Assembly: GCA_003990745.1 (NCBI GenBank)
Contig: RBNI01000904.1
Coordinates: 1-25,928 of the forward strand
Reading direction: 5' to 3'
From: Jimgerdemannia flammicorona
Lineage: Eukaryota; Mucoromycota; Endogonomycetes; Endogonales; Endogonaceae
DNA length: 25,928 nt
This document shows, piece by piece, positions 1 through 20,226 of this stretch; the stretch's first letter is position 1, and each line of letters starts with the position of its first letter. The notes under the pieces were generated by a model, which was not told where the DNA came from, made no database searches, and worked only from the letters and a program-made list of their open reading frames with translations. The position numbers were made by a program, and so were the translations under genes.

Positions 1-415
1 CTTGGGTGATCGAGCGATCGCACATTTTCTTTATTTCTTTCTTTCCCCTCGCTTCCCCGGTTGGTTCCCCCGTTGTTGAGAGCGCATTAAGTTATTCATC
101 TCATGTCAGTCGTTTGGTGTTTAGTTGTCGATACGGTCCTTGTAGTTGGCGCCGGGCGGGCGTGTATTTCATCTTAGCCTCTCTCTTCTTTGCTTTTTTG
201 CATTTATTACCTTTACGGCCGTGACAAAATGGTTTATCCAGCCCGTCCATAGGGTGGTCACCTCTCTGGCCTTTGTTTTGTACTTCTTAGCTAGTTGTTT
301 ACTTCGCTGGCCTTGTTTTGCTTTTCTCATCTTAGGAGTCCTTGTCTTTTGTTGCTCCAATGTACTCTATCTTCTCTACAACGAATAAATTCTTACTTGA
401 AGCCTAACCCTAACC
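1..415 (+). mobile_element. Family A LINE copy 0: last codons of ORF2, 3' UTR and telomeric junction
   Basis: The window opens in the last two sense codons of ORF2 (CTT GGG) followed by TGA at 7-9, the same ending as at 5162-5164 and 10305-10307. The rest is 3' UTR: a T-rich stretch, the conserved core beginning CCATAGGGTGGTCACC near 247, AATAAA at 384-389, then TTACTTGAAG and the CCTAACCCTAACC tract at 403-415. Of all six 3' UTRs this one keeps the most CpG (for example GGCGCCGGGCGGGCG near 149-163, where other copies have TpG or CpA), so it looks like the youngest copy. The body of the copy lies left of the window. Short open frames here are chance, because the region aligns as untranslated sequence in all copies. 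Confidence 0.85.
403..415 (+). repeat. Telomere-like tract CCTAACCCTAACC, copy 0/copy 1 junction
   Basis: Two units of the C-rich telomere repeat follow the 3' end of copy 0 (TTACTTGAAG) and precede the 5' end of copy 1. The same arrangement recurs at four more junctions. There is no poly(A) tail. The tract could be remnant telomere DNA or the end of the element RNA. Confidence 0.85.
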
Positions 416-515
416 ACTCCCGTGATTTCCCCATTTGGCTAGACTCGGCTTTACGGCCCGAAGCTATTCCAATTTAAGAAAGCAGTCACTTTGATTAGCT
501 AAGCCTCTCATCGGG

Positions 516-523
516 TATAAATA
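516..523 (+). promoter_or_regulatory. TATA-box-like TATAAATA in copy 1 5' UTR
   Basis: TATAAATA followed by a C run occurs here and at the matching place in copy 2 (5677-5684), about 100 nt inside the 5' end and about 100 nt before the ORF1 ATG. The site is conserved between the two full-length copies. A role as a pol II promoter is inferred from the motif and position only. Confidence 0.5.
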
Positions 524-622
524 CCCCCTTCCCCATTATTTTTTCGTTGCACAAACAAAGGTCACATGACTCATTTCACAATTTCAAACAAATAAACAAA
601 CCCACCTCTGCCTATTTCGGCA

Positions 623-2121
623 ATGTCAGCCACCTCCTCTATTGTCGGCGATGACAGCAATGCCACCCACCTCTTTGCGTGCTTCGGCGCCTTGCTCTGC
701 TACGCTGAATGTCGCGGCATCGGTCTTCTCTCCCTCGGCTTCGGCGAGGGCAGCCTAACAGTGATGTGCAGGTCGTGCGGGGATGCATGACCAATATTAG
801 CGTATTTATCTTCCCTGTGTGATGTAGAAGATAACGAAGAGATCGCAATCTCTTCCAATTCAGACCACGATGCCCAGCGTACCTCATTTTCTTCCACACC
901 CCGCCCCTCAATCGGAACAAGCATGATCGCCCAAACACTAATTTGGGAATGACCCTGATGGCCGGTCGTGCGGGCCCCTTAGCCAACCCTGATTTGGTCA
1001 TAGAGATGGCCGCGATGAGGAAGCAGATCTCGGATCTGCTGACTCAAGTGGCTGATTTGGCCAAAATCAATGCCCAGCTGATGGCACAGCTTACTGTGCG
1101 ATCGGTGCCCACCACCCCCTCGTCATCTGATGCTCCTTCGGGAAGTACCCCCACTGCCCCTTCCACATCCGCCTCCCCCAAGTCCTCGGCCCCCCCTCCT
1201 ACTGGTCCTGCTGCAAACACGCGGTCTAAGACCCAGAAGCGAGTGGACAAGCGGGCTGCTAAAGCCGCTGCGTCACAAGCTGGTGCACCACCAAAAGAGG
1301 CAACTCCCACGGTTGCGCCGTCGGCCGCTAAAGCCGTGCCCCCTAAAAAGGGTAAGGCCAAGGCCCCCGAGCCAGTGCTCTAGGCTCAGCCTGTGGGTTC
1401 CAGTGCCGCCGGCCCGTCTTCATCCTCCACTTCGGCCCCCGCCCCCCCCAAATCGTACATCACTACTGCCAAGAAGGTCTCTATCAAGGATAGGACCCAG
1501 GCCTATCCCGAGCCGGAGAGAGCTGCCACCACTGCTGCCCTCTCGTGCATGACCCATAAGCCAACCTCTCATTTGTCGCCGACTGAGAAGAGTGCTCGGC
1601 TGTAGCACGTTTATGTCAATGGATTTGCCCATCTTAAGATCGGGCAGATTCGGAAGAACTTGTATGATGTCCATGTGATGTTGTCGAAAGTTCTCAATAT
1701 GTCGTACATCTCGGCATCGACCATCGAATTCCTTCTCCGCCCTGATTATGTCACGGCATTCCAAAAGAAGATAAAGATACTCAGGTTCTCGGTGCTAATG
1801 ACCTAGGACCCTGTGCTCCTACATAACAAGAATGCCACGGAGGCCATAAAGGCACGGGTACTCCAATCCTTCCATGCTCGGGTCCGACAGTTGGCTGGCG
1901 ATACCACTGTGAAGAGGCCAGAGGTGCAGACCTTCTACAGAGCTTGGGCCGCAGAACTCGGCCTTACTCTCCTCTCCTTCACCTCCCCGACGGCCGGCCC
2001 TGCTTCGAAGGCAGATGGTACTGTGGCTGTGACTGGTGATATGGCGATAGATTTGGAAGCCGAGGCTTCCACTTCAGGTGCTTCCCACGCTGTTGGTGCT
2101 AATGCACCCAGCCCACAATGA
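623..2121 (+). pseudogene. Family A ORF1, copy 1 (nucleic-acid-binding ORF1 protein), broken
   Basis: The start is the ATG at 623-625 (MSATSSIV), matched at 5786 in copy 2. Comparing the copies gives an ancestral ORF of about 499 codons. Domains in order: a Cys cluster near residues 27-55 (CYAECR, then CRSCGDA), an acidic stretch, an AT-hook-like segment (damaged here, NKHDRP), a heptad-rich helix (EMAAMRKQISDLLTQVADL) near 1003-1090, a Pro/Ala/Ser/Lys linker, and a conserved C-terminal domain (FAHLKIGQIRKNLY onwards). Lesions: TGA 788-790, a 1-nt deletion near 898-903, TAG 1381-1383, TAG 1603-1605 and TAG 1804-1806. Most sit where copy 2 has CAG or TGG, so they are C-to-T or G-to-A changes. 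The role, RNA binding in the retrotransposition particle, is known for LINE ORF1 proteins and inferred here. Confidence 0.75.
2118..2121 (+). promoter_or_regulatory. ATGA overlap coupling ORF1 stop and ORF2 start, copy 1
   Basis: ORF1 ends in TGA (2119-2121), which overlaps the ORF2 ATG (2118-2120). The same overlap is kept at 7271-7274 and in badly decayed copy 5 at 16964-16967. Such overlaps in other LINEs support translation of ORF2 by termination and reinitiation. That mechanism is inferred here. Confidence 0.7.
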
Positions 2122-5100
2122 GAGTTGGGTTCCTCAATACACACAGACTACTCCAGAACAAGTTCGATGTGCTCAGTTGGTTGATTGGTCCTGCCCTTGA
2201 CGTTCTTTTCATATGTGAAACATGGCACATTCCACTGCATCCCTCTCCGCTCATTCATATGTCCTCTCCTCTGGCGTCGCACAGGATCGTGGGTCACCAG
2301 AATGGTGGGCTCGTAGTCCTCGTGTCAAACTGTTTCACCCTCCTTATTTCCGGATCCTCCGCTGACTCCTTCTATATCTGGCTCATGTTCTAGGGCCTGA
2401 TATTGGTTGGGGTTTACGCCCCCCCCTCTCTTCCTATTGGTGGTTTCCGAGATCTCGTGTCTGGTCTCTTTCTGGGTAAGGCACTTTTGATTGGTGACAT
2501 CAATACTCAATTCAGTGCCCGCCTTAATGATATCAACTCTGGTCCTCATAATCAGATGGATGTCATCGATACCTCCCTGATGATGTAGTCATTGAATCAC
2601 TTGACCCCAGTGGCTAGTTCTACATACATTGATCACGCGTTTGCCACCGCATCTCTTCATGCATCCCTCACCTGCTCTACCCCCCCTGTCACTACCGACC
2701 ACCCCTCCCTCCTTACTGTTTCCTTCCCCTTCTCCCCCTCGCCGGTTGCCGCTCAGGCTGGTGTCTGCCGTTACTCTGCAAGATATCTGACTGACCTGGT
2801 CATTCAAGCTCACCTTCGGGAATTAGCAGATATTGTTTGCGATACTGTTGTCAGGTCCATCTACTCTGTCCGAGATCATGTCCCTGGCTTTCACTCCGTG
2901 GAAGATCGCCAGTAGTTCATTGATTCCCTGGATACTCTTTTGACCTCTGGTCTATAATCAGTTTGTGAGGACATTCTTGGCTCATATGATGCAAGAGAAA
3001 TCAGAGCAGCGCCACTCCCTCGGCAGGACCTTCTTCATAGTGCATCTTTGGTCTCTGATGCCATCCGCGGTTTTAAGTGAGTGTATTGCTCCACCCCCCT
3101 CACCCCCCTCCAATCTCGATCCTCTGCTATTCCAGTGTTCGATGACGTGGTTGCTCATTTTACCACTATCTTCAGCCAGCCGAATGCCTCTCTCCACCTC
3201 GATGACTCTGAGGATGTCTTTCCCCTTGGCGTGGGTGCTCTTGGACTGCAGGGCTGGTTTGACCAGTCGGCGGTTTGGAGGGCTATCCGCAGCTACTCCC
3301 TCTCGAAGGCCTGTGGAGCAGATTCCTTACACATCCGGATCCTTCAGGTGATGGCGGGTGAGGTTGATGCCCCCTGTAGCCTCTCCAAAGCCTTGTCCTT
3401 CTTCTTCCAGATGTGCGTGGTCTGGGGGCTCACTCCCCGCTGCTGGAATTCTGCCATTATCACTCTGATCCCTAAGAAGGAGGATTCGAGGACGATTGAT
3501 GGATTTTGCCCTATCGCTCTTACTAAAATGTTTCGTAGACTCTTCGAGCGGTGTCTGGAAGGATATGTCAAGAGCCGAAGTGGCCTGACAGAATTGTCGC
3601 GCTGCCAAGGTAGCTTCTACACCTGCTTCTCATCTCTTTCCCATGTCTTGCTCTCGCATGAGACATGGGCCAAGGGGTGGGGCCGCCGTGTCTTTCTTGA
3701 CCTCTGGCAGGCATATGATTGAGTCCCCCTCAAGCTTATTCTTTCCCATCTTGAGGCGTGAGGTGCCGACACGGCCCTCCTTAGCATTATCCGAAGCCTG
3801 TTCAATTACTGTTCTTATCAGGTGGTTGTTAATGGCCTCATTACCCCTCTGGTCCCCACTGAGCGTGGTCTTTTTCAGGGCTCCCTCCTCTCTCCCTGGC
3901 TCTTTGATGTCTTTATCGACCCCCTTGCCGCCTCCTTTGATGAAATATTCAAGGAGTACGACTTCCTCCTTGGGCTCTTCTTCACTGACGATATCGCTCT
4001 TACCCCCCACACTACCGTAGAAGGGCAAAGAATGATTGACTTTTGTGAGGATTGGCTTCTGGAAAATGGTATGGAACTCAATCCCAAGAAGTGTGGTTAT
4101 GTTGGCCCTGCTGACTGAACTGTGTGGATTGGGGGCGAACCATGCCCGCGACCCCCCTCCTACATATACCTGAGTGTACCGTATACCAACAAAGGGTTTG
4201 ACTTTGTTGAGCTCGCATTGCAGAATACGGCAAAGGCAAAACAAACTCTTGGGTTCTGCCGTACCCGTGGTCCCCTCTGGTTGCCAATGGTCAAGCTGGC
4301 CATCGTATGGACATTCATTAGGCCTCAGCTGGAATATGGTCTTCCCCTTTTATGAGCTTCCTGTCTGGCTACTACCACGGGGCTTCAGATGTTGAAGCGT
4401 CCCGAGAAGGTCTTTGATGATGCTGTTGCTTGGGCGGTTGGATTTTCTGGCCGTCCCTTGCTTGGCAGCTCGATTCTCGGCCTCCCTTCCTTCCTTCATC
4501 ATATGTCTGACCTCTGTTGCATGTTCCAAGCCCATCTGGATTAGCGTAGCAAGTCTGGCAACAACCCCATCGGCCCCCTTAGCGAGCGCTTTGTCACGCG
4601 TCCTCCGGGTTCTATCATTGACAAGTTCCAGCATTGGACCTCTTAGCTTGACTTCCTCGACTGATACTGGGACCTTCATCCCCAGGTTCACAAGGCTTGC
4701 TCGCTCCGCTCCTTCCTTCAGTCCTTCCTTCGGGATCAGCTGCTGCAGGAATGGGCCTCCTCTTCCCAGGCTCTCGTTTGGTATATCACCCCAAAGGCCG
4801 CTTACAGTCGCGAGGCGCCGATTGTATCCTCTCCTTCCCCCCCCGGCTTGTGCATTCTGTGCTCGCTTGGTGCTATGACTACTTTGGCCAACCCCGCCTC
4901 TACCCCTGTAGAAATAAGTTTCATTGTGGCCATCTCCTCAGATGTGGTCTTCTCGACGGTTCATATTCTATGTTCAGAGGTTCTTCCGATCATGATAAAC
5001 AACTCGATTGGTTTACCAATGATGAATAGCAGGAGGAACTTCGTGCCTACCCTCTTCACGCTCTTCATGGGACAGCCTATCATGCTATCGACATCATGTG

Positions 5101-5164
5101 TAATTCTGGTGGCCATCTCGTGGTCGGGTTCTGCCTGACTGAGATTATGAAGATGCTTGGGTGA
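2118..5164 (+). pseudogene. Family A ORF2, copy 1: APE endonuclease, reverse transcriptase and Zn-knuckle polyprotein, broken
   Basis: Ancestrally about 1015 residues. The N-terminal APE-like endonuclease shows RVGFLNTH, ICETWH, GVYAPPS, GDINTQF (catalytic Asp kept), YIDHAFAT and TTDHPSL. The reverse transcriptase follows with WNSAIITLIPKKEDS, FCPIALT, motif A FLDLWQAYD, motif B GLFQGSLLSPWLF and motif C FFTDDIAL at 3981-4004, where copy 3 has FFADD. A C-terminal CCHC-like motif lies near 4907-4955. No RNase H was recognised. The ORF ends in MKMLG then TGA at 5162-5164. At least 13 in-frame stops were located: TAG at 2391, 2586, 2913, 4542, 4644 and 5027; TAA at 2955; TGA at 3078, 3720, 3759, 4116, 4353 and 4662. 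One C is missing from the run near 4788-4792, shifting the frame. Where copy 2 is intact, most stops pair with CGA, CAG or TGG codons. Confidence 0.85.
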
Positions 5165-5557
5165 TCGAGCGATTGCACATTTTCTTTATTTCCTTCTCTC
5201 CCCTTGTTTACCTGGTTGGTTCCCTTGTTATTGAGAATGCGTTGAGTTATTCATCTCATGTTAGTCGTTTGGTGTTTGGTTGTCGATATGGTTCATGTAG
5301 TTGGTACCAGGCAAACGTGTATTATATTTTAGCCTTTCTTTTCTTTGCTTTTTGCATTTATTGTCTTTATGGCCATGACAAAATCGTTTTATCCAGCCCG
5401 TCCATAGGGTGGTCACCTCTCTGGCCTTTGTTTTGTACTTCTTAGCTGGTTGTTTACTTCGCTGGCCTTGTTTTGCTTTTCTTATCTTAGGAGTTTTTGT
5501 CTTTTATTGCTCTGATGTACTCTGTCCTCTCTACAATGAATAAATTCTTACTTGAAG
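5165..5557 (+). other. 3' UTR of family A copy 1 with conserved core
   Basis: Non-coding, about 390 nt, aligned in all copies. The core begins CCATAGGGTGGTCACC near 5402 and runs about 110 nt to the GTTGCTC block near 5512. AATAAA follows near 5539, then the telomere-like tract. In LINEs the 3' end usually carries the signal recognised by the reverse transcriptase, and this core is the best candidate. The open frames read through this stretch are not supported as genes. Confidence 0.7.
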
Positions 5558-5573
5558 CCTAAACCTAACCTAA
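5558..5573 (+). repeat. Telomere-like tract CCTAAACCTAACCTAA, copy 1/copy 2 junction
   Basis: A slightly degenerate C-rich telomere-type tract sits immediately after the copy 1 3' end and before the copy 2 5' end. Unit lengths vary (CCTAAA, CCTAA), as in decayed or error-prone telomere repeats. Confidence 0.8.
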
Positions 5574-5676
5574 GTCACTCATGTTATTTCCCCATTTGGC
5601 TAGACTCGGCTTTATGGCCCGAAGCTATTCCAAATTAAGAAAGCAGGCACTTTGATTAGCTAAGCCTCCCATTGAG

Positions 5677-5684
5677 TATAAATA
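5677..5684 (+). promoter_or_regulatory. TATA-box-like TATAAATA in copy 2 5' UTR
   Basis: Same motif, same following C run and same spacing to the ORF1 ATG as at 516-523. The surrounding sequence differs at several CpG sites while the motif itself is unchanged. Confidence 0.5.
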
Positions 5685-5785
5685 CCCCCTTCCCAATTAT
5701 TTTTTCGTTGCACAAACAAAGGGTACATGACCCGCGTTTCATAATTTCAAACAAATAAACACACACACCTCCGCCTATTTCGGCA

Positions 5786-7274
5786 ATGTCAGCCACCTCC
5801 TCCATCGTCAGTGATGACAGCAATGCCACCCGCCTTTTCGCGCACTTTGGCACCTCGCTCCACTGCGCCGAATGTCGCAGCGTCAGTCTTCTTTCCCTCG
5901 GCTTCGGCGAGGGTAGTCTTATGGTGATGTGCAGGTCATGCGGGGATGCATGACCGATATCGGCATATTTATCTTTCCTGCGTGATGCGGAAGATGACGA
6001 AGAGATCGCGATCTCTTCCTATTCGGACCATGACGCCCAGCATACCTCATTCTCTCCCATGCCCCTGCCCCTCAATCGGAACAAGCGTGGTCGCCCGAAC
6101 ACTAGTTTGGACGGCCGTTCGTGTGGGCCCCTCAGCCGACCCTGATTTGGTCATGGAGATGGCCGCGATGAGGAAGCAGATCTCAGATCTGCTGACTCAA
6201 GTGGCTGAACTGGCCAAAATCAATGCCCAGCTGATAGCGCAGCTTGCTGCACGATCTGCGCCCATCGCCCCCTCATCATCTGGTGCTCCTTTGGGAAGTA
6301 CTCCCGCCATCCCTTCCACATCTGCCCCCCCTAAGTCCTCGGCCCCCCCTCCTACTGGTCTTCCCATGAACACGCGGTCGAAGGCCCAGAAGCGAGCGGA
6401 CAAGTGGGCTGCTAAAGCCACTGTATCACAAGCTGGTGCGCCGCCAAAGGAGGCAACTCCCATGGTTGCGCCCTCGGCCGCTAAAGCTGTGCCCCCTAAA
6501 AAGGGTAAAGCCAAGGCCCCCGAGCCAGTGCCCCAGGCTTTGCCTGTGGGTCCCAGTGCCGCCAGTCCATCTTCGTCCCCCACTTCAGCCCCTGCCCCCC
6601 CTAAATCGTACACCGCCGCCACCAAGAAGGTTTCTATCAAGGATAGAACCCAGGCCTACCCCGAGCCAGAGAGAGCTGCTGCTGCCGCCACCCTCTCGCG
6701 TATGACCCACAAGCCGACCTCTCATTTGTCACCAACTGAGAAGGGCACTCGGCTGCAGCACGTTTATATCGATAGATTTGCCCATCTTAAGATCGGGCAG
6801 ATTCGGAAGAACTTGTACAACATCTATGTGATGTTATCTAAAGTTCTCAATATATCGTATATCTCGGCGTCAACTATCGAATTTCTTCTCCACTCTGATT
6901 ATATCACGGCATTCTAAAAAAAGATGAAGGCGCTCAGGTTCTCGGTGCTGACGGCCTGGGACCCCGCGCTCCCATGCAACAAGAATGCCATAGAGGCCGT
7001 GAAGGCATGGGTACTCCAATCCTTCCATGCTCGGGTCTGACAGTTGGCTGGCGATGCTACTGTGAAGAGGCCTGAGGTGCAGACCTTCTATAGAGCTTGG
7101 GCCGTGGAACTCGGCCTCACTCTCCCCTCCTTCACCTCTCTGGTAGCCAGCCCTGCTTCGAAGGCAGGTGGTACTGTGGCCGTGACGGGTGACATGGTGA
7201 TGGATTTGGAAGCTGAGGCTTCTGCTTCAACTGCTTCTCATGCTGTTGGTGCTAACGCACCTGGCCCACAATGA
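5786..7274 (+). pseudogene. Family A ORF1, copy 2, broken; best view of the N-terminal finger and AT-hook
   Basis: The ATG at 5786 begins MSATSSIVSDDSNAT. A four-cysteine cluster follows with spacing C-x2-C-x19-C-x2-C (CAECRS ... CRSCGDA), which suggests a zinc-binding fold. Next come an acidic stretch (DAEDDEE), NKRGRPNTS, an AT-hook-like GRP core in a basic setting, a coiled-coil helix near 6150-6250, a long Pro/Ala/Lys-rich linker, and the C-terminal domain beginning FAHLKIGQIRKNLY near 6778. Lesions: TGA 5951-5953 (shared with copy 1), an 11-nt deletion near 6109, TAA 6915-6917 (CAA in copy 1) and TGA 7038-7040 (CGA in copy 1). Overlaps ORF2 by ATGA. Finger and hook assignments are visual only. 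Confidence 0.75.
7271..7274 (+). promoter_or_regulatory. ATGA overlap coupling ORF1 stop and ORF2 start, copy 2
   Basis: The ORF2 ATG (7271-7273) overlaps the ORF1 TGA (7272-7274), exactly as in copies 1 and 5. Conservation at three sites marks this as the ancestral junction. Confidence 0.7.
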
Positions 7275-10200
7275 GAGTCGGGTTCCTCAATGCACACGGA
7301 CTACCCCAGGACAAGTTCGATGTGCTCAGTTGGTTGATTGGTCCTGCCCTCGACATTCTTTTCGTATGTGAAACGTGGCACATTCCGCTGCATCCCTCTC
7401 CACTCATTCACATGTCCTCTCCTTCAGTGTCGCACAGGATTGTGGGCCACCAGAATGGTGGACTCATGGTCCTCGTGTCAAACTGTTTCGCCCTTCTTAT
7501 TTCCGGGTCCTCCGCTGACCCCTTCCATATCCGGCTCATGTTCTAGGGCCTGGCTTTGGTTGGGGTTTACGCCCCCCCCTCTCTTCCTATTGGTGGCTTC
7601 CATGATCTTGTGTCTGGTCCCTTCCCGGGTAAGGCACTTTTGATCGGTAACATCAATACCCATTTTGGTGCCTGCCTCGGTGACGTCAATTCTTGTCCTC
7701 GTGATCGGATGGATGTTGTCGATACCTCCCTGATGACATGGTCATTGAATCACTTGACCCCGGTGGCTGGTTCTATGCGCATTGACCATACGTTCGCCAC
7801 CGCGTCCCTCCATGCATCACTCACCTGCTCCACCCCCCCTGTTGCTACTGACCACCCCTCCCTCCTTACTGTCTCCTTCCCCTTCTCTCCCTTGCCAGTT
7901 GCAGCCCTGGCTGGTATCCGCTATTACTTTGCGAAATATCTGACCGACCCGGTTGTTCAAGCCCACCTTCGGGAATCAGCTGATATTATTTGCAATATAG
8001 TTGTCAGGTCCATCTACTCAATCCGGGATTATGTTGCTGGCTTTCGCTCCATGGAAGATCACCAGCAGTTCATTGATTCCCTGGATGCCCTTTTGACCTC
8101 TGGTCTGCAGTTGGTTTGTGAGGACATTCTCGGCTCGTATGACGCAAGAGAAATAAGGGCAGTGCCGCTCCCTCGGTGGGACCTTCTTCGCAGTGCATCT
8201 TCGGTCTCTGATGCCATCCATGGTTTCAAGCGAGCATATCGCTCCACCCCCCTCGCCCCCCTCCAATCTCGATCCCCTGCTGTCCTGGTGTTCGATGATA
8301 TGGTTGTTTATTTCTCCACTATCTTCGGCCAACCGGACACCTCTCTTCATCTCGATGACTCTGAGGATGTCTTCTCCCTTGGTGTGGGTGCCCTTGGACT
8401 GCAGGGTTGGTTTGACCAACCAGCAGTTTAGAGGGCTGTCCACAGCTACCCCCTCTCGAAGACCTGTGGAGCTGATTCCCTGTACATCTGGATCCTTAGA
8501 GTAATGGCGGGCGAGGTTGACACCCCCTGTAGCCTCTCCAAAGCCTTGTCCTTCTTCTTCCAGATGTGCGTGGTCTGGGAGCTCACTCCCCACCGCTAGA
8601 ATTCCACCATTATCACCCCAATTCCCAAGAAGGAGGATTCCCAGACGATTGATGGATTTCGCCCTATTGCTCTGACTGAAATGTTTCGTAGACTCTTCGA
8701 GCGGTGTTTGGAAGGATATGTCAAGAGCCGAGGTGGCCTGACAGAAATGTCGTGCTACCAAGGTGGCTTCCGAACCTGCTTCTCATCCCTTTCCCATATC
8801 TTGCTTTCGCATGAGATGTGGGCTAAGATATGGGGCTGCCGTGTCTTTCTTAACCTCTGGCAGGTGTACGATCGAGTTCCCCTCAAGCTCATTCTTTCAC
8901 GTCTTGAGGCGCGAGGTGCCGATGTGGCCCTCCTTAGTATTATCCAAAGCCTGTTCAATTACTGTTCCTATCAGGTGATTGTTAATGGCCTCGTTACCCC
9001 TTCGGTCCCCACTGAGCATGGCCTCTTCCAAGGCTCCCTCCTCTCCCCCTGGCTCTTTGATGTCTTTATCAACCCTCTTGCCACCTCCTTTGATGAACAA
9101 TTTAAGGAGTACGACTTCCCCCTAGGGCTCTTCTTCGCTGATAATATCGCTCTTACCCCCCGCACTGCCGTGGAAGGGCAAAGGATGGTTGACTTCTGTG
9201 AGGATTGGCTCCAGGTGAACGGTATGGAACTCAACCCCAAGAAGTGTGGTTATGTCAGTCCTGCTGACTGTATGATGTGGATTGGGGGTGAGCCCTGCCT
9301 GCGACCCTCCTCCTACGTATACCTGGGTGTGCCGTATACTAACAAAGGGTTCGACTTTATTGAGCTCGCGTTGCAGAATACGGCTAAGGCGGAATGAACT
9401 CTTGGGTTCTGCTATGCCCATGGTCCCCTCTGGTCGCCAATGGTCAAGCTGGCCATTATATGGACATTCATTAGGCCTCAGCTGGAGTATGGCCTTCCTC
9501 TTCTATGAGCTTCCTGTCTGTCTACTACCACGGGGCTTCAGGTTTTGAAGCATCCTGAGAAGGTCTTTGATGATGCTGTTGCTTGGGTGGTTGGATTTTC
9601 TGACTGTCCCTTACTTGGTAGCTCAATTCTCGGCCTCCCTTCCTTCCTTCGTCGCATGTTAGACCTCTGTTGCATGTTCCAAGCCCATCTGGATTGGTGT
9701 AGCAAGTCCGGCAACAACCCCATCAGCCCCCTTAGTGAGCGCTTTGTCACACGTCCCCCGGGTTCTATTATTGACAAGTTCTGGCATTGGACCTCTTGGC
9801 TTGACTTCCTCGACTGGTCCTGGGACCTTCGTCCCCAGGTCCACAAGGCTCGCTCACTCCGCTCCTTCCTTCAGTCTTTCCTTTGGGATCAGTTATTGCA
9901 AGAATGGGCCTCCTCCTCCCAGGCTCTCATTCGGTACATCACCCCCAAAGGCCGCTTGCGGTCGCGGAGCGCCGACCGTGTCCTCTCCTTCCCCCCCCGG
10001 CTTGTGCGCTCTGCCCTTGCCTGGTGCTATGGCTACTTTGGCCAACCGTGCCCCTACCCCTGTGGAGATAAGTTTCATCATGGCCATCTCCTCAGGTGTG
10101 GTCTTCTCGATGGCATTCAGAGGTTCTTCCGATCGAGATGAACAACTCGACTGGTTTACCAATGACAAATGGCAGGAGGAGCTTCACACCTACCCTCTTC

Positions 10201-10689: not shown

Positions 10690-10705
10690 CCTAACCCTAA
10701 CCCTA
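10690..10705 (+). repeat. Telomere-like tract CCTAACCCTAACCCTA, copy 2/copy 3 junction
   Basis: The cleanest junction tract in the window, with two full CCCTAA-type units and flanking partial units. The copy 2 3' UTR abuts directly on the left. A 5'-truncated copy 3 starts directly on the right, within ORF2 coding sequence. Confidence 0.87.
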
Positions 10706-10950: not shown

Positions 10951-10958
10951 GTGATAGC
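10951..10958 (+). repeat. Left target-site duplication GTGATAGC of nested insertion
   Basis: Repeated at 12153-12160 beyond the poly(A) tract. Copies 1 and 5 have GTGATGGC at this place, so both duplicate copies carry the same G-to-A change. It extends to 9-10 bp if one mismatch is allowed. Confidence 0.75.
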
Positions 10959-12151
10959 AGGTAACAGACCCCTTTCTCTGCTATCTTACTGGTCACAAGG
11001 TTTGGTAAGCAACCTTCTAAGTCCCCTTTCCTCTATTATTATACCCTCTACCTTGGGTTGGTTTGCTGTGTCTATATAGGCATAGTGAGAGGAGGGCAAT
11101 AGTGAAGAGTTGCCCCTTTATCAGTATTGGATCAGTGTCTTCTCCACTTTTTTGCAGTTTCTGGTGCCTTTGGCTGCATTTTGAGTGGATCTGTTTGGTG
11201 CAGCACTTTCTTTCTTTTGCTATCACCAATAAGGTGCTGTCTCAGTATGTCTCAGACTACATAGGGAGTCAGCTGACCTTAGGCATCAAGTACTCAATGT
11301 AGGTTACCTGTAGGTCCTCAGTACCTGTGGTGGGGCCCTCTGACTTTAGCGAGCTTCCTGGCGAGCATGGTTCTGATGTAGATGACTGCTTTTTAGGTAT
11401 TGTCGAGATGGGAGGGGAGATGGCTGTCACAGATAGGAGGAAGGGCAATTATGGTAGACCAGTAGGGTGCCAGGCTGGGGGCGGTCATCAGGGCTGGGGC
11501 AGATGCTGCTTCGGTGGGGCCTTTTGATTGGTATGGCACAGTTAGGTAGTAGGTATCACTCTCAGCTTCTTTTGGTGATTTGGCAGATTGGGCTCCAGTC
11601 ATCAGGGGGGGTCAAGGGGCCCAAGGCTACGTATTTCAGATGTCTTGGCTACACTTAACTGAAACTGAGAGCTGACATAGCAATGTGATTGAGGCCCATA
11701 GGCTTGAGTAGTAGAGTATTGGGGGACTCCTCCCACCTTATATATAAGTTCTTTACTCATCTTAACTGAGAGAACCAGGCCCTACCCACTGTATTGTGTC
11801 TTGATGAGAGTTTTTCTTTACCTGTTATTCTCTTTGAGGTAGCAGGGGCTATTCAATTCAGCTCAGACATGGCCTTATATATATGTTGGGTTCTCAGGCA
11901 TGCACTTTTGGTCATTAGCATATGGTTGGGTTTTCTCTGATAGTAGGAAGAGCATGGTACACAGAATGAGGTGTAGGCCACCATAGGCCCTACTGTGCCT
12001 GATATAGTTGAGCTGCTAGATAATAGCTAGCCTAGGTTAATGGGGGAGCAGTGCTTGGTGGGTGGTGGGGGAGGGTTTTGGCCTATATAGTCTAGGTTCT
12101 CTTTCAATAAAAATCCACAGGACATTGAGTCTGTCAAAAAAAAAAAAAAAA
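10959..12151 (+). mobile_element. Poly(A)-tailed retrotransposed insertion in copy 3, identity unknown
   Basis: About 1.19 kb interrupts the copy 3 ORF2. It is bounded by an 8-bp duplication, ends in 16 A residues (12136-12151) and has AATAAA at 12106-12111, about 25 nt upstream of the tail. That combination is typical of a polyadenylated transcript inserted by an L1-type machinery: a processed pseudogene, a SINE-like element, or the 3' end of a LINE. Its base composition is unlike the host copy, with G-rich stretches near 11400-11530 that recall family B. Only short open frames are present, for example 11327-11527 and 11063-11302 on +, and I recognise no protein in them. No gene call is supported. 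Confidence 0.75.
12106..12111 (+). terminator. Polyadenylation signal AATAAA of nested insertion
   Basis: AATAAA lies about 25 nt before the 16-A tract, the normal spacing for a pol II polyadenylation signal. This supports an mRNA-like origin of the insertion. Confidence 0.65.
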
Positions 12152-12152
12152 G

Positions 12153-12160
12153 GTGATAGC
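12153..12160 (+). repeat. Right target-site duplication GTGATAGC of nested insertion
   Basis: An exact 8-bp copy of 10951-10958, followed by the continuation of the copy 3 ORF2 (CGATGAGAAGGATGCTCCC). Confidence 0.75.
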
Positions 12161-14365
12161 CGATGAGAAGGATGCTCCCTGTAGCCTCTCGAAAGCCTTG
12201 TCCTTTTTCTTCTAGATATACATGGTTTGGGGGCCCACTCTCTGCTGCTGAAACTCCACTATTATCACCCCAGTTCTCTAGAAGGAGGAATTGAGGACAA
12301 TTGATGGATTTCGCCCTATTGCTCTTACTGAAATGTTTCATAGACTCTTTGAGCGGTGTTTGGAAGGTTACGTCAAAAGTCAAAGCAGCCTGACAGAAAT
12401 GTTACATTGCCAAGGTGAGTTCTGAATCTACTTCTCATCTCTTTCTTATGTCTTACTCTTGTATGAGATGTGGGCTAAGGGATGAGGCCACTGTATCTTT
12501 CTTGACCTCCAGCAGACTTATAACAGAGTCCCTCTCAAGCTTATTCTTTTGCGGCTTGAGGTGTGATATGCTGATGCAGCCCTCCTTAGTATTATCTGAA
12601 GTCTATTTAATTACTATTCTTATTAGGTGGTTGTGAATGGCCTCATCACCCCTTTGGTCTCTACTGAGCATGGCCATTTCCAAGGCTCCTTCCTCTCCCC
12701 CTAGCTCTTCAATGTCTTTATTGACTCCCTTGCTGCCTTCTTTGATGAACAGTTCAAGATGTATGACTTCTCCCTCAGGCTCTTCTTTGCTGATGATATT
12801 GCCCTCAATCCCCACACTGTTGTGGAGAGGCAGAGGATGATTTACTTCTGTGAGGATTGGCTCTTGGTAAATGATATAGAGCTTAACCACAAAAAATGCA
12901 GTTATGTTGGTCCGGCCAACTGTACAGTACAGATTGGGGGAGAGCTCTGCCCATGACCCTCCTCCTATATCTATCTGGATGTACTATACACTAATAAAGA
13001 ATTTGACTTTGTCAGCCTAGCATTATAGAATATGGCAAAGGTAGAATGAACTCTTGGATTCTGCCATATCTGTGGTCCCCTTTAGTTACTAATGGTCAAG
13101 TTGGCCATTGTATATACTTTCATCAGGCCTCAGCTAGAGTATGACCTCCCCCTTCTTTGAGCTTCCTGTCTGGCTACTACCACAGAGCTTCAGATATTGA
13201 AGTGGCTCGAGCAGGTCTTTAATAATGCTATCACTTAGGCAGTCAGGTTTTCTGGCTATCTCTTACTTGGCAGCTCAATTCTTGGCCTCCCTTCCTTCCT
13301 TCTTCATACATCGGACCTTTGCTGCATATTCCAAGCCCATCTGGATTGGTGTAGTAAGTCTGGCAACAACTCCATCAGCTCCATTAGTGAGTGCTTTGTC
13401 ATGCATCCCCTGGGTTCAATTATTGATATGTTCCAATGTTAGACCTCCTGACTTGACTTTCTCAACTGGTACTAGGAACTTCATCCCCAGGTCCACAAGA
13501 CTCGCTTGCTCTACTCCTTCCTCCAGTCATTTCTTCGAGATCAGCTACTCTAGGAATAGGCCTCCTCCTCCCAGGCTCTTATTTGGTATATCACCCTGAA
13601 AGGCTGCTTGTGGTCAAGGAGCACCAATCGTATCCTCTCCTTCTCTCTCTGGCTTGTATGTTCTGCTCTTGCCTGGCATTATGGCTACTTTGCCCAACCC
13701 CGCCCCTATTCCTGTGGAGACAAGTTTCATCATAGCCATCTCCTCAGATATGGTCTTCTCGATGATTCTTATTCTGCCTTCTGAGGTAATTCTGATTATG
13801 ATGAACAGCTTGATTGATTTACTGATGACAAGTGGCAGGAAGAACTTCATACCTACCCTCTTCACACTCTTTATGAGACAGCCTACCACACTATTGATAC
13901 CATGTGTAATTCTGGTAGCCACCTTGCAGTTGGGTTCTGCCTGACCAAGATTATGAAGATACTTGGGTGATTGAGCAATCACACATTTTCTTTATTTCCT
14001 TCTTTCCCCTTATTTGCCTTGGTTTTTTTCTTATTGTTGATAGCACATTGAGTTATTTATCTCATGTTAGTTATTTGGTATTTGGGTGTTGATATGGTCT
14101 CTGTAGTTGGTGCTGGGCATTTGTGTATTTTATTTTAGTTTTTCTCTTCTTTTGCTTTCTGCATTTTTATTATCCTTATAGTCATAACAAATGGTTTTAT
14201 TCAGCCTATCCATAGGGTGGTCACCTCTCTGGCCTTTGTTTTGTACTTCTTAGCTAGTTGTTTACTTTGCTGGCCTTGTTTTACTTTTCTTATCTTAGGA
14301 GTCTTTGTCATTTGTTGCTCTAATATATATTATCTTCTCTATAATGAATAAATTCTTACTTGAAG

Positions 14366-14380
14366 CCTAACTCTTACCCT
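14366..14380 (+). repeat. Degenerate telomere-like tract, copy 3/copy 4 junction
   Basis: CCTAACTCTTACCCT can be read as CCTAACCCTAACCCT with two substitutions, one of them C to T. It follows the copy 3 3' end and precedes the truncated copy 4. The tract has decayed along with its neighbours. Confidence 0.65.
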
Positions 14381-15373
14381 TATATATACTTGGGTATGCT
14401 ATATGTCAATAAAGGGTTTGACTTTATCAGTCTAGTATTATAGAATACAGCAAAGGTAGAATGAACTCTTGGGTTCTGCCATACCTATAGTCCTTTCTGG
14501 TCACTAATAGTCAAGCTGGCCATCATATGTATCTTTATTAGGCCTCAGCTGAAATATGACCTTTCTCTTCTACAAGCTTCTTGTCCTGCTACTATTATTA
14601 GGCTTAAGGTGTTGAAGCATTCTAAGTAGGTCTTTGATGATACTATTGCTTGAGCAATCAGGTTTTCCACCTATCTCTTGCTTTGCAGTTCAATTCTTGG
14701 TCTCTCCTCCTTTATTTATCATATGTTGGACCTCTGCTATATGTTCTAAGCCAATCTGGATTGGTTTAGCAAGTCTAGTAACAACCCCATCAGTTCTCTT
14801 AGTGAGTACTTTGTCACACATCTCCTAGGTTTTATCATTGATAAGTTCTAGCATTAGACCTCTTGGCTTGACTTTCTCAACTGGTACTGGGACCTCTATC
14901 CTAGGTCCATTAGACTTACTTGCTCTGTGTCATTTCTCTGGGACCAGCTGCTCTAGGAATGGGCTTTGTCCTCCCAGGCTCTTGTTTGGTACATTACTCC
15001 CAAAGGCCACTTATGGTCTCAGGGTACTAATTACATCCTCTGCTTTCTCTCCTAGCTTGTGCGCTCTGCTCTTATCTGGCATTATGGCTATTTTGGCCAA
15101 CCCTACCCCTGCCCTTATAGAGATAAGTTTCATCATGGCCATCTCCTAAGGTGTAGTCTTCTTGACAGTTTCTATTCCACCTTCTGAGATAACTCTAATT
15201 GTAATGAATAGCTCGATTGGTTTACCAGTGATGAATGACAGGATGAACTTTGCACTTACTCTCTTCATGCTCTTCATGAGACAGCTTATCATACTATTGA
15301 TGCTATATATAATTCTAGTCACTACCTTGTGGTTGGGTTTTGCCTGACTGAGATTATAAAGATGCTTAAGTGA
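14381..15373 (+). pseudogene. Family A ORF2 C-terminal remnant, copy 4
   Basis: Matches the last third of ORF2: the YLGV-like start, a region equivalent to PEKVFDDAVAW, a C-terminal knuckle-like stretch (YRDKFHHGHL near 15120), then the ancestral stop. Interrupted by TAG and TGA codons. In copies 4 and 5 the codon that is TGA at 4353 and 9506 is CAA, the other decay product expected from an ancestral CGA. Confidence 0.72.
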
Positions 15374-15768
15374 TTAAGCAATTGCACATTTTCTTTATCC
15401 CCTTCTCTCTCCTCATTCACCTTGGTTGGTTCTCTTGTTGTTGAGAGTACATTAAGTTATACATCTCATATTAGCCACTTGGTGTTTGGGTATTGATATT
15501 ATTTCTATAATTGGTACTGGACATTTGTATATTTTATCTTAGCTACTCCTTTCTTTACTTTTCACATTTATTATCTATATAGCTATGACAAAATAGTTTT
15601 ACTCTGTCTGTCTATAGGGTGGTCACCTCTCTGGTCTTTATTTTGTTCTTCTTAGCTAGTTGATTACTTTGCTAGCTTCTTTTTGCTTTTCTTATCTTAG
15701 GAGTCTTTGCCATTTGTTGCTCTGATATATCTTATTTTATCTAGAATGAATAAATTCCTTACTTGAAG

Positions 15769-15777
15769 CCTAACCCT
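15769..15777 (+). repeat. Short telomere-like tract CCTAACCCT, copy 4/copy 5 junction
   Basis: One and a half C-rich telomere-type units between the copy 4 3' end (TTACTTGAAG) and the 5'-truncated copy 5. The exact right edge is uncertain by a few bases. Confidence 0.7.
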
Positions 15778-16967
15778 ACTCTGATAGTTTGGATATATCC
15801 TAACTGCTGGCTGAGGAGGTCCCTCAGCCAACTCTGATTTAGCCTCAAAGATAGCTATAATGAGAAAGCAAATCTTAGATCTGTTAACTTATATAACTAA
15901 TCTGACTAAGATCAATACCCAGCTAATGGAATAGCTTGCTGTACAATCTGTGCCCACTGTTCTCTATCATCTAGTACTCCTTTAAAAAGTACTCTTATGC
16001 TTAGTCAACTACTGTAACCCTAATTATTCAGCCCTCCCTCCTACTAATCCTACCACAAATACATATTCTAAAACTTAGAAATTAGCAGACAAGTAGGCTA
16101 CTAAAGCCACTGTATCATAGTCTAGTATACTACTAAAGAAGGCAACTTCTATAGCTGTACCTCTAGCTGCTAAAGCTATACTTTCCAAAATGAGTAAGGT
16201 CAAGGCTCACAGGCCAGTGCCCTAGGTAATACCTATGGAACTCAGTGCTATCAGTCCATCTCTGTTTCCTGCTTTGACCTCTACCCCATCTAAATTATAT
16301 ACTGTTGCCACTATGAAGATTTCTATCAAAGATAGAACTCAGGCCAACTCTGAGACAGAAAGAGCTTTTGCTACCACAGCTATTTTATATATAACCTGCA
16401 AGCTAACCTCTCATTTATTACTAACTGAGAGAGACACTCTACTGCAGTACATTTACATCAATGGCTTTACCCATTTGAAGATCAAATAGATCCAGAAGAA
16501 CCTGTGTAACATCTATGTGATATTATCAAAGATTCTCAATATGTTATATGTATATCTCAGCATTGACTATTAAATTTCTTTTATATCCTGATTATGTCAT
16601 AGTATTCCAAAAGAAGATAAAGTTGCTTGGGTTCTTAGTACTCTTGGCCTAGGACTCTGTGCTTCCCCAAAACAAGAATACCAAAGAGGCCATAAAGACA
16701 CAGATCCTCCAATCCTTCTATATCTAGGTCTAGTAAATAGCTAACAATACTACTATGAAGAGGTCCAAGATATATACTTTCTACAAGATATAAGTTATAG
16801 AACTCAGTTTCACCCTCCTCTCTCTTGCCCCCATATCAGCTGGCTCTGCTTTGAAGACAGATAGTATTGTAGCTATAACTGGGGAAATAGTGATAGATTT
16901 GGAAGCTAAAGCTTCTCTCTCAGATACTTTCCATACTGTTAGCACTAATGTGTCTAGCCTCTAATGA
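15778..16967 (+). pseudogene. Family A ORF1 remnant, copy 5
   Basis: Lacks the finger and AT-hook through 5' truncation. The coiled-coil segment aligns near 15846-15930 (ATAATGAGAAAGCAAATC), followed by the linker and the C-terminal domain near 16455-16620. The ATGA junction survives at 16964-16967. CAG-to-TAG and TGG-to-TAG changes are frequent, and the longest remaining open piece is about 84 codons (16235-16489). Confidence 0.72.
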
Positions 16968-19900
16968 GAGTCAGATTCCTCAATACTCACAGACTAACTC
17001 AGAACTAATTTGATATACTCAGTTAGTTAATTGGTCCTGCCTTTAATATTCTTTTCATATGTAAAATATAGCAGATTCTACTGCATCCTTCTCTACTTAT
17101 TTATATGTCCTCTCTCCCAGTATTATACAGGAACATAGATTACTAGAATGGTAGTCTTATAGTCCTTATATTAAACTATTTTACTCTACTCATTTCTGGG
17201 TCCTCTGCTAAGATCTTCTATATCAGCCTCATGTTTTAGAACCTGGCTTTGGTTGGAGTTTTCACCCCCATCTCTCTTCCTATTGATGGCTTTCATGATC
17301 TTATATCTTGTCTCTTTCTAGGTAGGATTCTCTTGATTAGTAACATCAATACACACTTCAGTACTTACCTTTGTGATATTAACTCTGGTCCTTATGATCA
17401 GATAGATATCATTGAATGACATGGTCACTGAGCCACCTGACCTTAGTGGCAGGATCTATATATATTGATTACATATTCACCACTATATTCCTCCACATAT
17501 CTCTTACTTGCTCCACCCCTCTTGTTACTACTGACTATCTTTCTCTTCTCACTGTCTCCTTCTTCTTTTTTCTCTTACTAGTTGCTACCTTGACTGGTGT
17601 CTACTATTACTCTGTAAAATATCTGATCAATCCAGTCTTTCAAGCTCATCTCTAGAAATCAGCAGATATTATTTATAATATCATTGTTAGATTATTTACT
17701 CTATCTGGAACCATATTGCTGGTTTTCACTCTGTGGAAGATAACTAGCAGTTTGTTGATTCCTTTTACTCTCTTTGACCTCTGGTCTACAGTCTATCTAT
17801 AAGAACATTCTGGGCTTATATGATAAGAGAAATCAGGACAGCACTACTCTTATAGCAGGACCTCCTTTGTAGTACATCCTCAGTCTTTGATACCATTCAT
17901 GAATTCAAAGAGCATACTACTTCATCTCCTCTACACCTATCCAATCCTGCTCTCCTACCTTCTTAGTATTTGATAATATGGTTTTCTATTTTATCACTAT
18001 TTTCAGCCAACTAAATACTTCCCTATATCTTGATAACTCTGAGAATATCTTCCTCCTCAGTGTGGAGGCCCTTGGACTATAGTCTTAGTTTGACCAATCT
18101 ATAGTTTAGAGGATCATCTATAGCTATCCCCTCACAAAGACCTGTGGGGCCAACTTCTTGTATGTTCAGATCCTTCAGGTGATGGCAAGCAAGAAAGATA
18201 CCCCCTATAGCCTGTTGAAAGCCCTATCCATCTTCTTCTAGTTGTATATAGTTTAGGGGCTCACTCTCTGCTACTAGAATTCCACCATTATCTCCTTAGT
18301 TCCAAAGATAGAGAAATCTTTGATAATTAATAGATTTTGCTCTATCACTCTTATCAAGATGTTTGCCAACTTTTTGAGTAGTGTTTGGAAGACTATGTTA
18401 AGAGCTAAAGTGGTCTGACAGAAATATCATGCTGTTAAGATAACTTCTCAATCTACTTCTTATCTCTCTCTAATATCTTGCTCTTGCATGAGATATGAGC
18501 CAAGAAGTGGAGCCACAATTTCTTCCTTAATCTCTGGCAGACATTTGATAGAGTCTCCCTCAAGCTTATTCTTTTGTAACTTAAGGTAAGAGGTGCTAAT
18601 GTGACCCTCCTCAGTATCATCAGAAGCCTGTTCAATTACTGTTCTTATCAGATAGTTGTTAATGGCCATATTACCTCTCCAGTATCCACTGAGCATAGTC
18701 TCTTCCAGGGCTCCCTCCTCTCCTCTTGGCTTTTTGATGTATTCATTGACCCTCTCGCTACCTCTTTTGATGAGATATTTAAGGAGTATGACTTTCTCCT
18801 CAGACTCTTCTTAACTGATGACATTGCTCTCACCCCCCACACTACTATAAAAGGGTAGAGGATGATTGATTTTTGTGAAGGTTGGCTTATTGTTAATAGT
18901 ATAGATCTCAACTTAAAGAAGTATAGTTATATTGATCCAACTGACTATACTATACTGATTGGGGCAAGTCTTGCCCATAACCCCCCTCCTCCATATATCT
19001 CAGCATGCCATATACTAATAAAGAATTAGACTTTATCAGTCTTATGTTGCAGAATATAGTAAAGACAGAATGTACTCTTGGTTTCTGCTGTACTCATAGT
19101 CCCCTCTAGTCACTAATGGTCAAGCTGGCCATCATATATATCTTTATTAGACCTCAGCTAGAGTATGGTCTTCCACTTCTACAAGCTTTCTATCTGGCTA
19201 CTACTATGTGGCTTTAGGTGTTGAAGTATTCCAAGCAGATCTTTGATAATACTGTTACTTGGGTGGTTGAATTTTCCAGCTGTCTTTTGCTTGGCAGTTC
19301 AATTCTTGATCACTCTTCTTTTCTTTATTGTATATTAGACCTCTGCTATATATTCTAAGCCAATTTGAATTAGTGTAGCAAGTCTGGCAATAACCCCATC
19401 AGCTTTATTAGCAAGTGCTTTATCATATATCCCCTGGATTTCATCATTAACAGGTTTCAACATTAGACCTCTTGGCTTGACTTCCTTGACTAGTACTGAG
19501 ATCTCTGTCTCTAGGTCTGCAAGACTCACTCACTCTGCTCCTTCCTTCAGTTCTTCCTCCAGAATCAGCTGCTACAGAAATGGACCTCCTCTTACTAGGC
19601 TCTCATTTAGTATATTATACCCCATGGTCACTTGCAATCTCAAGAGGCCAATTATGTCCTTTCCTCCCCCCCCCCCTAGTTTATATATTTTGCTCTCACC
19701 TGGCTTTATGGCTACTTTGGCCAACCTGTCCCTGCTTCTATTGAGATAGGTTTCATCATGGCCATCTGCATGGGTGCAGTCTTCTCAATAGTTTGTATTC
19801 TGCTTTCTGAGGTAATTCAGATTATAATGACTGGCTCAATAAGTTTACTTTTAAAAAATGACAAAAACAACTTTACACCTACCCTCTTTATACTCTTCAA

Positions 19901-19996
19901 GAGACAGCCTACCATGCCCTCAATATCATATATAATTCTGGTTACTATCTCACAGTTGGGTTCTATCTGAGCAAGATTATGAAGATGCTTAGGTGA
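16964..19996 (+). pseudogene. Family A ORF2 remnant, copy 5
   Basis: Nearly full length (3033 nt against an inferred 3048). Recognisable pieces: the endonuclease region with AGTAACATCAATACACAC at the GDIN position, reverse transcriptase motif A as FLNLWQTFD near 18515-18550, motif B as SLFQGSLLSSWLF near 18697-18735, and motif C as FLTDDIAL near 18805-18832, all damaged. The TAG in the MF-stop-G(L/N) context near 17237 is shared with copies 1 and 2. The C-terminus ends at TGA 19994-19996. Stops are too many to list. Confidence 0.78.
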
Positions 19997-20226
19997 TCAA
20001 GTGATTGTATATTTTCTTTATTTTCTTCTTTCTCCTCATTTACCTTGATTTGCTTCCTTATTATTGAGAGTGAATTGAGTTATACATCTCATATCAGTCA
20101 TTTGGTATTTGGGTATCAATATTGTTCCTGTAGTTTGTATCATATTTTATCTTAGTTTCTCTCTTTTTTGCTTTTCACATTTATTATCTTTATAGTAATG
20201 ACAAAATGCCAGTCACCTTTCTCTGG
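19997..20226 (+). other. Partial 3' UTR of copy 5 and junction with family B
   Basis: Matches the first half of the family A 3' UTR as far as GACAAAATG near 20207. A short deletion removes the CCAGCCCGTCCATAGGGTGG part of the core, TCACCTTTCTCTGG follows, and similarity then stops. The family B open frame begins about 10 nt later. Confidence 0.6.

Follow-up and report, generated by a model that had tools for sequence, protein, structure and literature searches.

The repeat array and its features

The window, the 25,928-nucleotide contig C904 in full, came from a fungal genome of 135 Mb and contained a single LINE of about 5.1 kb in six copies, as determined by BLAST against a reference copy (L091). 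The sequence-only reading had counted six LINE copies in the same orientation; all six (A to F) aligned on the + strand and were 71-90% alike to the reference. Two of them, B and C, were full-length, and a different LINE family, termed LINE2, lay under the array. The features were as follows.

1..402, + strand: copy A, 3'-terminal part, ending in TTACTTGAAG (BLAST to L091 4757-5171, 90%; motif at 393)
403..415, + strand: telomeric C-strand tract CCTAACCCTAACC
~416..5557, + strand: copy B, full length, reading frames interrupted (87.6% to L091 over the copy B length)
5558..5573, + strand: variant tract CCTAAACCTAACCTAA
~5574..10689, + strand: copy C, full length (87.8% to L091)
5928..6917, + strand: copy C ORF1-like frame of 329 codons, Pro/Ala-rich, without a Pfam match
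7547..8431, + strand: copy C ORF2 piece covering the second part of the putative APE-type endonuclease and a linker (motifs aligned in L091 and relatives; the piece alone had no Pfam match)
8600..9397, + strand: copy C ORF2 piece encoding the reverse transcriptase (RVT_1 match, E 7.3e-19)
10690..10705, + strand: tract CCTAACCCTAACCCTA
~10706..14365, + strand: copy D, truncated on the 5' side near element position 2708 and carrying a later 1.2-kb insertion (BLAST to L091)
14366..14380, + strand: tract CCTAACTCTTACCCT, 15 nt
~14381..15768, + strand: copy E, truncated on the 5' side near element position 3759 (BLAST to L091)
15769..15778, + strand: tract CCTAACCCTA
~15818..20208, + strand: copy F, the most diverged (71% to L091, BLAST), truncated at both ends
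20209..25928, outer limits approximate, + strand: LINE2
22704-23075, + strand: LINE2 Exo_endo_phos-like stretch (E 0.00099, below the curated cut-off)
24028-24411, + strand: LINE2 RVT_1 (E 3.2e-10)

Five successive junctions followed one order, in which the LINE 3' end was joined to CCTAACCC and then to the next copy. The terminal motif TTACTTGAAG was located at positions 393, 5548, 10680, 14356 and 15759, and each time a tract beginning CCTAA came directly after it. The five joins read earlier as punctuated by telomere repeats were thus recovered, but the repeats were far from arrays: the tracts measured 10-16 nt, or about 2 to 2.5 telomere units, two were degenerate (CCTAAACCTAACCTAA and CCTAACTCTTACCCT), and no true telomere array was present within the window. 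Copy F had neither a 3' end of the TTACTTGAAG type nor a tract at its 3' side. No Rfam family matched the window at gathering thresholds.

The later insertion in copy D showed two marks of an ordinary insertion, a tail of 16 A and a direct repeat of 8 bp. It was also observed that C-to-T decay between the element copies was biased to CpG, unlike classical RIP, which follows a CpA pattern; this bias points to no particular phylum. The fungal nature of the genome was indicated by 22 Fungal_trans matches. HET and hydrophobin profiles matched nothing, but neither did their controls, which leaves these two results uninformative, and KDZ yielded a single fragment.

Proteins of the element

The reverse transcriptase of the element was recognized by RVT_1 with an E value of 2.1e-20, and its ADD motif was invariant in seven aligned proteins. 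The residues E39, Y105, D132, N134, D177, H178, D199 and H200, which we take to be the APE motif positions, were likewise invariant in all seven, and the first N of the endonuclease motifs was invariant in the six proteins that covered it (P0006 lacked the N terminus). The family profile matched LINE-1 ORF2p with an E value of 1.7e-38, in an alignment that started at ORF2p residue 7 and spanned the endonuclease. It also matched R2 (E 1.5e-36), although the R2 chains were aligned in the reverse transcriptase part only. The endonuclease part searched alone, without its relatives, matched no Pfam family and no PDB chain, and PF03372 was matched weakly by two of the seven family members.

A CxC-x7-H-x4-C motif was located at the C-terminus, and the 958-codon ORF2 frame stopped about 10 residues after it. 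A C-terminal restriction-like endonuclease was not found, as too little sequence followed this motif. By motif and family profile, the element is a LINE with a predicted N-terminal APE-type endonuclease and a reverse transcriptase. Truncation at the 5' end was frequent, while the 3' end was constant, partly by construction, since the copies were collected via that end. A protein search returned 12 matches, the best at 36% identity, and the ORF2 alignment revealed no relatives in IMG/VR.

Chromosome ends and the junction tract

Arrays of ten perfect TTAGGG repeats were located exclusively at contig ends, on 16 contigs. In 14 of the 16 the LINE was fused directly to the array, always via its 5' side and with the 3' end facing inward. 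Nine of the fusion points were at or within a few nucleotides of the full 5' end, and the other five joined truncated copies, near element positions 66, 860, 1562, 2823 and 3400. Hence the outermost copies, full-length or truncated, carried the (TTAGGG)n cap directly. The two arrays lacking a fusion stood on LINE2 (C175) and on sequence unmatched to the element or the window (C476). These data agreed with the initial proposal of an APE-bearing LINE stacked at telomeres, with 3' ends inward at all 14 fusions.

Further, the distribution over the assembly was investigated. From 2255 first-look candidates, 144 reverse transcriptase places were scored on 74 of the 7754 contigs, and 42 contigs held at least two places, versus about 1.6 expected by simulation. 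The predicted clustering at TTAGGG-bearing contig ends was supported by a strong enrichment of the element on telomere-bearing contigs, 15 of the 16 carrying it (P about 2e-30). The element-bearing contigs of known length did not exceed 72 kb, and these counts cover contigs of this size, not chromosome arms. Neighbouring places were on one strand in 66 of 68 cases, with flips in C175 and C4327. Two further pairs, each separated by under 1.2 kb, probably represent fragments of a single copy and were excluded; if they are included, the figure is 68 of 70. Neither random orientation nor junctions devoid of repeats characterized the family; telomeric sequence followed 89 of 90 3' ends.

The junctions were collected with the 13-mer TTCTTACTTGAAG, which occurred 96 times genome-wide versus 14 times for a reversed control pattern, so that a chance motif was ruled out. 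Sequence was retrieved for 95 of the 96 sites (C7229:110-122 was left out), five chance matches in other sequence were dropped, and 90 genuine 3' ends were kept. CCTAACC came exactly next in 66 of the 90 and CCTAA in 83. The telomeric C-strand followed in one fixed phase when at least eight of the first 10 positions were required to match, and the sole exception, L047, matched seven. None of the 90 junctions had poly(A) immediately behind the 3' end. The acceptors beyond the tract were a full-length copy, a variously cut copy, LINE2 in either orientation or other DNA; 19 junctions led into DNA without identity, part of which could be ordinary chromosome.

Passive accumulation in subtelomeres of a general LINE, whose 3' end happened to finish in a CCTAACCC microsatellite, was also considered. 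Some LINEs do end in short tandem repeats, and LINE2 likewise occurs in these regions. However, the fusions to terminal arrays were uniformly oriented (14 of 14), and element sequences downstream of a 3' end were in the same orientation in 58 of 59 cases with one reversed, whereas LINE2, an internal control beside the same junction type, was six to six. The single insertion in copy D, with the A tail and direct repeat of an ordinary insertion, may also speak against it. The passive explanation was largely contradicted, and we regard it as highly improbable.

Twenty-nine of the 90 joins led to a full 5' end and 61 to other acceptors, and 58 of these 61 were non-redundant. This diversity counts against growth of the arrays by recombination or break-induced copying of element-telomere units instead of repeated retrotransposition, because amplification would repeat the same junction. 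The copies in the window, merely 71-90% alike to the reference, point the same way. Head-to-tail arrays with short interstitial tracts would be compatible with recombination, an origin suggested for the MoTeR arrays once telomerase has been lost, and two duplicated junction sets, one of three members and one of two, were present; the 29 joins to full 5' ends were outside this duplication test because their acceptor sequence is common to all. As the main source of the arrays, recombination was considered improbable.

Based on these data, we proposed that the element is a telomere-specific APE-type fungal LINE that adds copies to chromosome ends. Reasoning from the genome sequence, a probability of roughly 0.85 was assigned to this reading, which covers telomere-specific end addition and excludes an RNA-borne tract. 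The ribonucleoprotein would prime on the G-strand 3' end of a telomere that is eroded or short, the element RNA would be reverse-transcribed outward from it, and the new tip would afterwards be capped by telomerase. A telomerase RNA-binding domain (Telomerase_RBD) is encoded in the genome, therefore no claim is made that the element replaces telomerase; the LINE apparently contributes to building chromosome ends together with it.

The origin of the tract was approached through its length. Across the 58 non-redundant joins whose acceptor was a truncated copy or other DNA, the match to the telomeric repeat per position was 0.83-1.00 through nt 15, and it fell to 0.40-0.48 at nt 16-19 and 0.14-0.41 at nt 20-36. 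The step from nt 15 to 16 gave a P of 8e-5, computed from rounded fractions. Tracts of 14-17 nt were recorded in 36 of the 58 joins, 9 nt was never observed and 21 nt once, and only four of 87 counted tracts exceeded 24 nt (32, 32, 37 and 47).

It may be that the 15 nt CCUAACCCUAACCCU are the closing stretch of the element RNA, which would end about 28 nt past AATAAA. The element would then supply its own short telomere template, and its transcripts would end in ..CUUGAAGCCUAACCCUAACCCU. An RNA ending in this template would let the reverse transcriptase heal telomere-less ends by adding 2.5 repeats and then the 5-kb element, a suggestion that we hold tentatively, at slightly less than even odds. 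In 40 junctions with at least 200 nt upstream, T at tract position 7 did not cluster by 3'-UTR lineage (P 0.95), and no non-canonical tract was shared with the nearest 3' UTR. The short, little-mutated copy L044 was nearest to most others, so this comparison has little weight and counts for neither origin of the tract.

The tract may instead be leftover target of an insertion within the array, as in SART/TRAS, with the APE endonuclease nicking TTAGGG repeats at a fixed phase by target-primed insertion. Shorter tracts would be unrecognisable and those of at least three repeats would be lost by breakage, so that survivors would be near 2.5 repeats. The telomere specificity is the same as in end addition, and the difference is in the origin of the tract. 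The phase is fixed at the element side, and at eight of 17 terminal arrays the repeat starts with AGGG on the acceptor, matching the phase of the inner end of the tract; 15 nt is therefore among few possible nick lengths (9, 15, 21). The available portions of the literature state that SART1 requires at least three TTAGG repeats (PMC7265360) and that MoTeR tracts of at least three repeats are fragile, the stable ones having at most two (PMC7367193). However, 9-nt tracts were missing and 21-nt tracts nearly so among the 58 joins, despite terminal arrays with 60 nt or more of perfect repeat, and one dominant length would need coinciding lower and upper limits. Leftover target seems a possible but rather doubtful source of the tract.

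Comparison with known telomeric elements

A close likeness was seen to MoTeR1 of Pyricularia (Magnaporthe) oryzae and FoTeR of Fusarium oxysporum. As described in the consulted parts of the sources, these are fungal non-LTR elements at TTAGGG telomeres with the 5' end tipward and common truncation, MoTeR also forming head-to-tail arrays with short interstitial TTAGGG tracts, and both have a restriction-like endonuclease and are placed in the group of CRE1/2 and SLACS (PMC7367193, PMC12857005, PMC8381367). The earlier remark that MoTeR lacks an APE domain is in line with these passages, whereas the element reported here has a predicted APE-type endonuclease at the N-terminus. FoTeR 3' ends, in the same partial texts, are followed by three to seven TAACCC copies, compared with most often about 2.5 here.

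The endonuclease of SART1 and TRAS1 is of the APE type. HeT-A, TART and TAHRE of Drosophila (Jockey clade) form head-to-tail arrays with the 3' end inward and attach to chromosome ends, as here, and their junctions are oligo(A). Athena and Coprina have short reverse-complement telomeric repeats at their chromosome-end junctions.

According to the accessible text of one source, SART1 and TRAS1 (Bombyx mori, R1 clade) are telomere-repeat-specific LINEs with a sequence-specific endonuclease in a host that keeps its repeats; however, they insert inside TTAGG arrays, while the inner tracts here were short with no long inner array, and the SART1 3' junction bears poly(A), in contrast to none in 90 of 90 here (PMC7265360). 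The same text describes Drosophila as having neither telomeric repeats nor telomerase activity, unlike the TTAGGG caps and Telomerase_RBD of this fungus (PMC7265360). Zepp of Chlorella and Tx1-1_ACar of Anolis, LINEs of unrelated hosts, were reported in telomere repeats and are likened here by description alone, as given in part of PMC10088271. Athena and Coprina are Penelope-like and endonuclease-deficient in the sections seen (PMC3846280; Athena is named in PMC10088271), unlike the LINE reverse transcriptase and APE motifs of this element.

As far as the cited sections extend, the described fungal telomeric LINEs, MoTeR and FoTeR, use a restriction-like endonuclease, and a putative APE-bearing lineage at fungal TTAGGG ends differs from them. 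If the proposed reading is true, another branch of LINEs would have become specialised for telomeres anew, in a host that apparently keeps telomerase. The many copies form a natural record of end attachment, with dozens of distinct joins and a narrow range of tract length, and they raise the testable question of whether a LINE RNA carries a telomere template and heals broken ends. If such an RNA-borne template is true, a mobile element would join a template like that of telomerase to end attachment of the HeT-A kind, beside the telomerase of the host.

Arrangement of the element in the window

The source genome comprised 134.8 Mb in 7754 contigs, and the window was the whole of contig C904, 25,928 bases long. 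A BLAST comparison with the reference copy of the element (L091) located one LINE six times on a single strand, together with a second LINE family (LINE2).

Copies of the element and associated features in the window
Copy A: 3' part only
Copies B and C: full length
Copies D and E: 5'-truncated
Copy F: both ends truncated; the most diverged copy
~20209 to 25928, after copy F: LINE2, with Exo_endo_phos-like and RVT_1 stretches
393, 5548, 10680, 14356 and 15759: element 3' end TTACTTGAAG

At all five TTACTTGAAG sites the 3' end was followed immediately by a CCTAA-type tract and then by the next copy. The sequence-only reading of same-strand LINE copies with telomeric junctions held for the six copies and five junctions; the tracts were not arrays, being ~2-2.5 repeats (10-16 nt) long, and two were degenerate. 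The majority of copies carried AATAAA directly upstream of the 3' end.

Copy D was interrupted by a 1.2-kb insertion (10963-12151) ending in a 16-A tail, with the 8-bp direct repeat GTGATAGC on either side (10951 and 12153). Unlike the telomeric element, it looked like an ordinary poly(A) retro-insertion. The substitutions private to copies B and C, relative to L091, were chiefly C-to-T and G-to-A with CpG as the commonest site, a pattern which suggests methylated-cytosine decay rather than CpA-type RIP.

Chromosome ends and genome-wide junctions

A search for ten perfect TTAGGG repeats yielded 95 overlapping matches, spread over 16 contigs, against none for the control; every one of these arrays was positioned at a contig end.

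Sequence bearing the terminal array
Full 5' end of the element, or a few nt away (9 contigs): C1192, C2317, C3373, C3766, C4238, C5069, C6737, C6888, C7229
Truncated element (5 contigs): C17, C1856, C3789, C3929, C6543
LINE2: C175
Sequence matching neither the element nor the window: C476

The element 3' end pointed inward at 14/14 array-element fusions, and the less perfect array of C943 was also fused to the element in this orientation. The proposal that TTAGGG contig ends carry the element with 3' ends inward was thereby borne out at 14 of the 16 ten-repeat contigs. Runs of at least three TTAGGG were also recorded away from the terminal arrays (C1213:9142, C2525:13090 and others); some of them may mark former ends.

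Reverse transcriptase (RT) domains were scored at at least 144 places, from 2255 first-look candidates. These fell on 74 contigs, and 42 contigs carried two or more, versus ~1.6 expected. The predicted clustering on telomere-bearing contigs was observed, as 15 of the 16 telomere contigs were among the 74 (P ~2e-30). Neighbouring RT pairs at least 1.2 kb apart lay on the same strand in 66/68 cases, the exceptions being a single old reversed copy of 51% identity on C4327 and two convergent arrays, 3' ends inward, on C175. The latter contig (L080; 38.7 kb, telomere at its start) carried the element on the plus strand to 14.1 kb and on the minus strand from 17.3 kb; an end-to-end fusion, a mini-chromosome or a misassembly is possible.

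The 3'-end sequence TTCTTACTTGAAG occurred 96 times in the genome versus 14 times for the reversed control. All sites except C7229:110-122 were fetched (95/96), and 90 were kept after the removal, before counting, of five chance matches within unrelated sequence (L037, L041, L108, L124 and L145). Exact CCTAACC directly followed 66 of the 90 3' ends and CCTAA 83, and 89 agreed with the C-strand phase in at least eight of the ten positions that come first.

Sequence downstream of the 90 3' ends
5' end of the same element, complete or nearly so: 29
Truncated element copies beginning close by: 26, all in the same orientation
Element copies detected further down: 3, all in the same orientation
Reversed element copy: 1
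LINE2: 12, six per orientation
Other sequences: 19

The 6/6 split of LINE2 is a useful internal control on orientation. LINE2-related sequence, the acceptor at 12/90 junctions, also bore a telomere directly at the C175 start. The 3'-terminal stretches of copies L028 and L044 were 99.5% identical over the ~200 bases compared, hinting at recent activity among otherwise decayed copies.

Element proteins and known telomeric elements

The ORF2 frame of L091 was stop-free over 958 codons, and only RVT_1 was detected in it by Pfam. An alignment combined it with six relatives found at E 1e-141 to 1e-45, the best of which showed 36% identity across 99% of the query. The positions equivalent to the APE catalytic residues and the RT ADD motif were invariant; the catalytic roles of the aligned endonuclease residues are presumed from LINE-1 and APE enzymes. 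The family profile matched LINE-1 ORF2p from residue 7, across its endonuclease, and R2 chains in the RT region only. PF03372 matched weakly in 2/7 family members, and no PDB chain matched the endonuclease part of the element alone. Because too little sequence followed the terminal CxC-x7-H-x4-C motif, a C-terminal restriction-like endonuclease was considered absent. ORF1, whose frame was shifted in L091, contained CxxC pairs as well as a region of low complexity rich in Pro and Ala.

According to PMC12857005, PMC8381367 and PMC7367193, MoTeR1 and FoTeR share the orientation of the element (and MoTeR its head-to-tail arrangement; PMC7367193), whereas their endonuclease is restriction-like rather than APE-type, and their RT groups with CRE1/2 and SLACS. 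PMC10088271 names SART/TRAS, GilM/GilT, Zepp1, MoTeR1, Tx1-1_ACar, Athena and Drosophila elements as telomeric retrotransposons. Among the top-listed matches in open-licence PMC, none named an APE-type LINE at fungal telomeres in its title or abstract opening, which does not prove absence.

Length and origin of the tract

The 61 joins not made to a full 5' end were reduced to 58 by collapsing two duplicated-junction sets, and were scored per position against CCTAACCCTAACCCTAAC.... The match fraction was 0.83-1.00 at positions 1-15, 0.40-0.48 at 16-19 and 0.14-0.41 at 20-36, with a drop between positions 15 and 16 (P 8e-5, from rounded fractions). The mismatch-tolerant length had a mode of 15 (16/58) and was 14-17 nt in 36/58; 9 nt was never recorded, 21 nt once, and the maximum was 47 nt. 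The matching at 16-19 above the later background reflects either some longer tracts or a preference for short tract/acceptor matches. The exceptionally long degenerate tract (~47 nt) at the L113 junction (C2317:13442-13814) perhaps arose where the element attached to a telomere of which more was left. Among the 29 joins made to a full 5' end, counted with any duplicates included, tract length ran from 5 to 37 nt with no single mode.

It was proposed that the tract may be borne by the element RNA, which would give one dominant length whatever the kind of acceptor. Alternatively, it may be leftover target telomere, its minimum set by recognition and its maximum by the fragility of long interstitial tracts; by analogy, SART1 is reported to require at least three repeats (PMC7265360), and MoTeR tracts of at least three repeats are reported to break (PMC7367193). 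On our reading, the terminal array began with AGGG on the acceptor in 8/17 cases, in the phase of the tract's inner end, which fits both explanations. That LINE2 and other DNA were likewise joined by way of this short tract suggests that the ends receiving the element had already lost their telomere.

Telomerase_RBD matches were found on three contigs by six-frame search, so the host probably makes telomerase; several contained stops, which could stem from introns or decayed copies. Fungal_trans gave 22 matches in the genome, which marks the host as a fungus.

At the level of the assembly, end stacking, orientation, a fixed-phase tract, TTAGGG capping and varied acceptors were demonstrated. 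We propose that, at the tip of the chromosome, a G-strand 3' end would prime copying of the element RNA, that the new cDNA would lengthen the chromosome, and that telomerase would cap the new tip.
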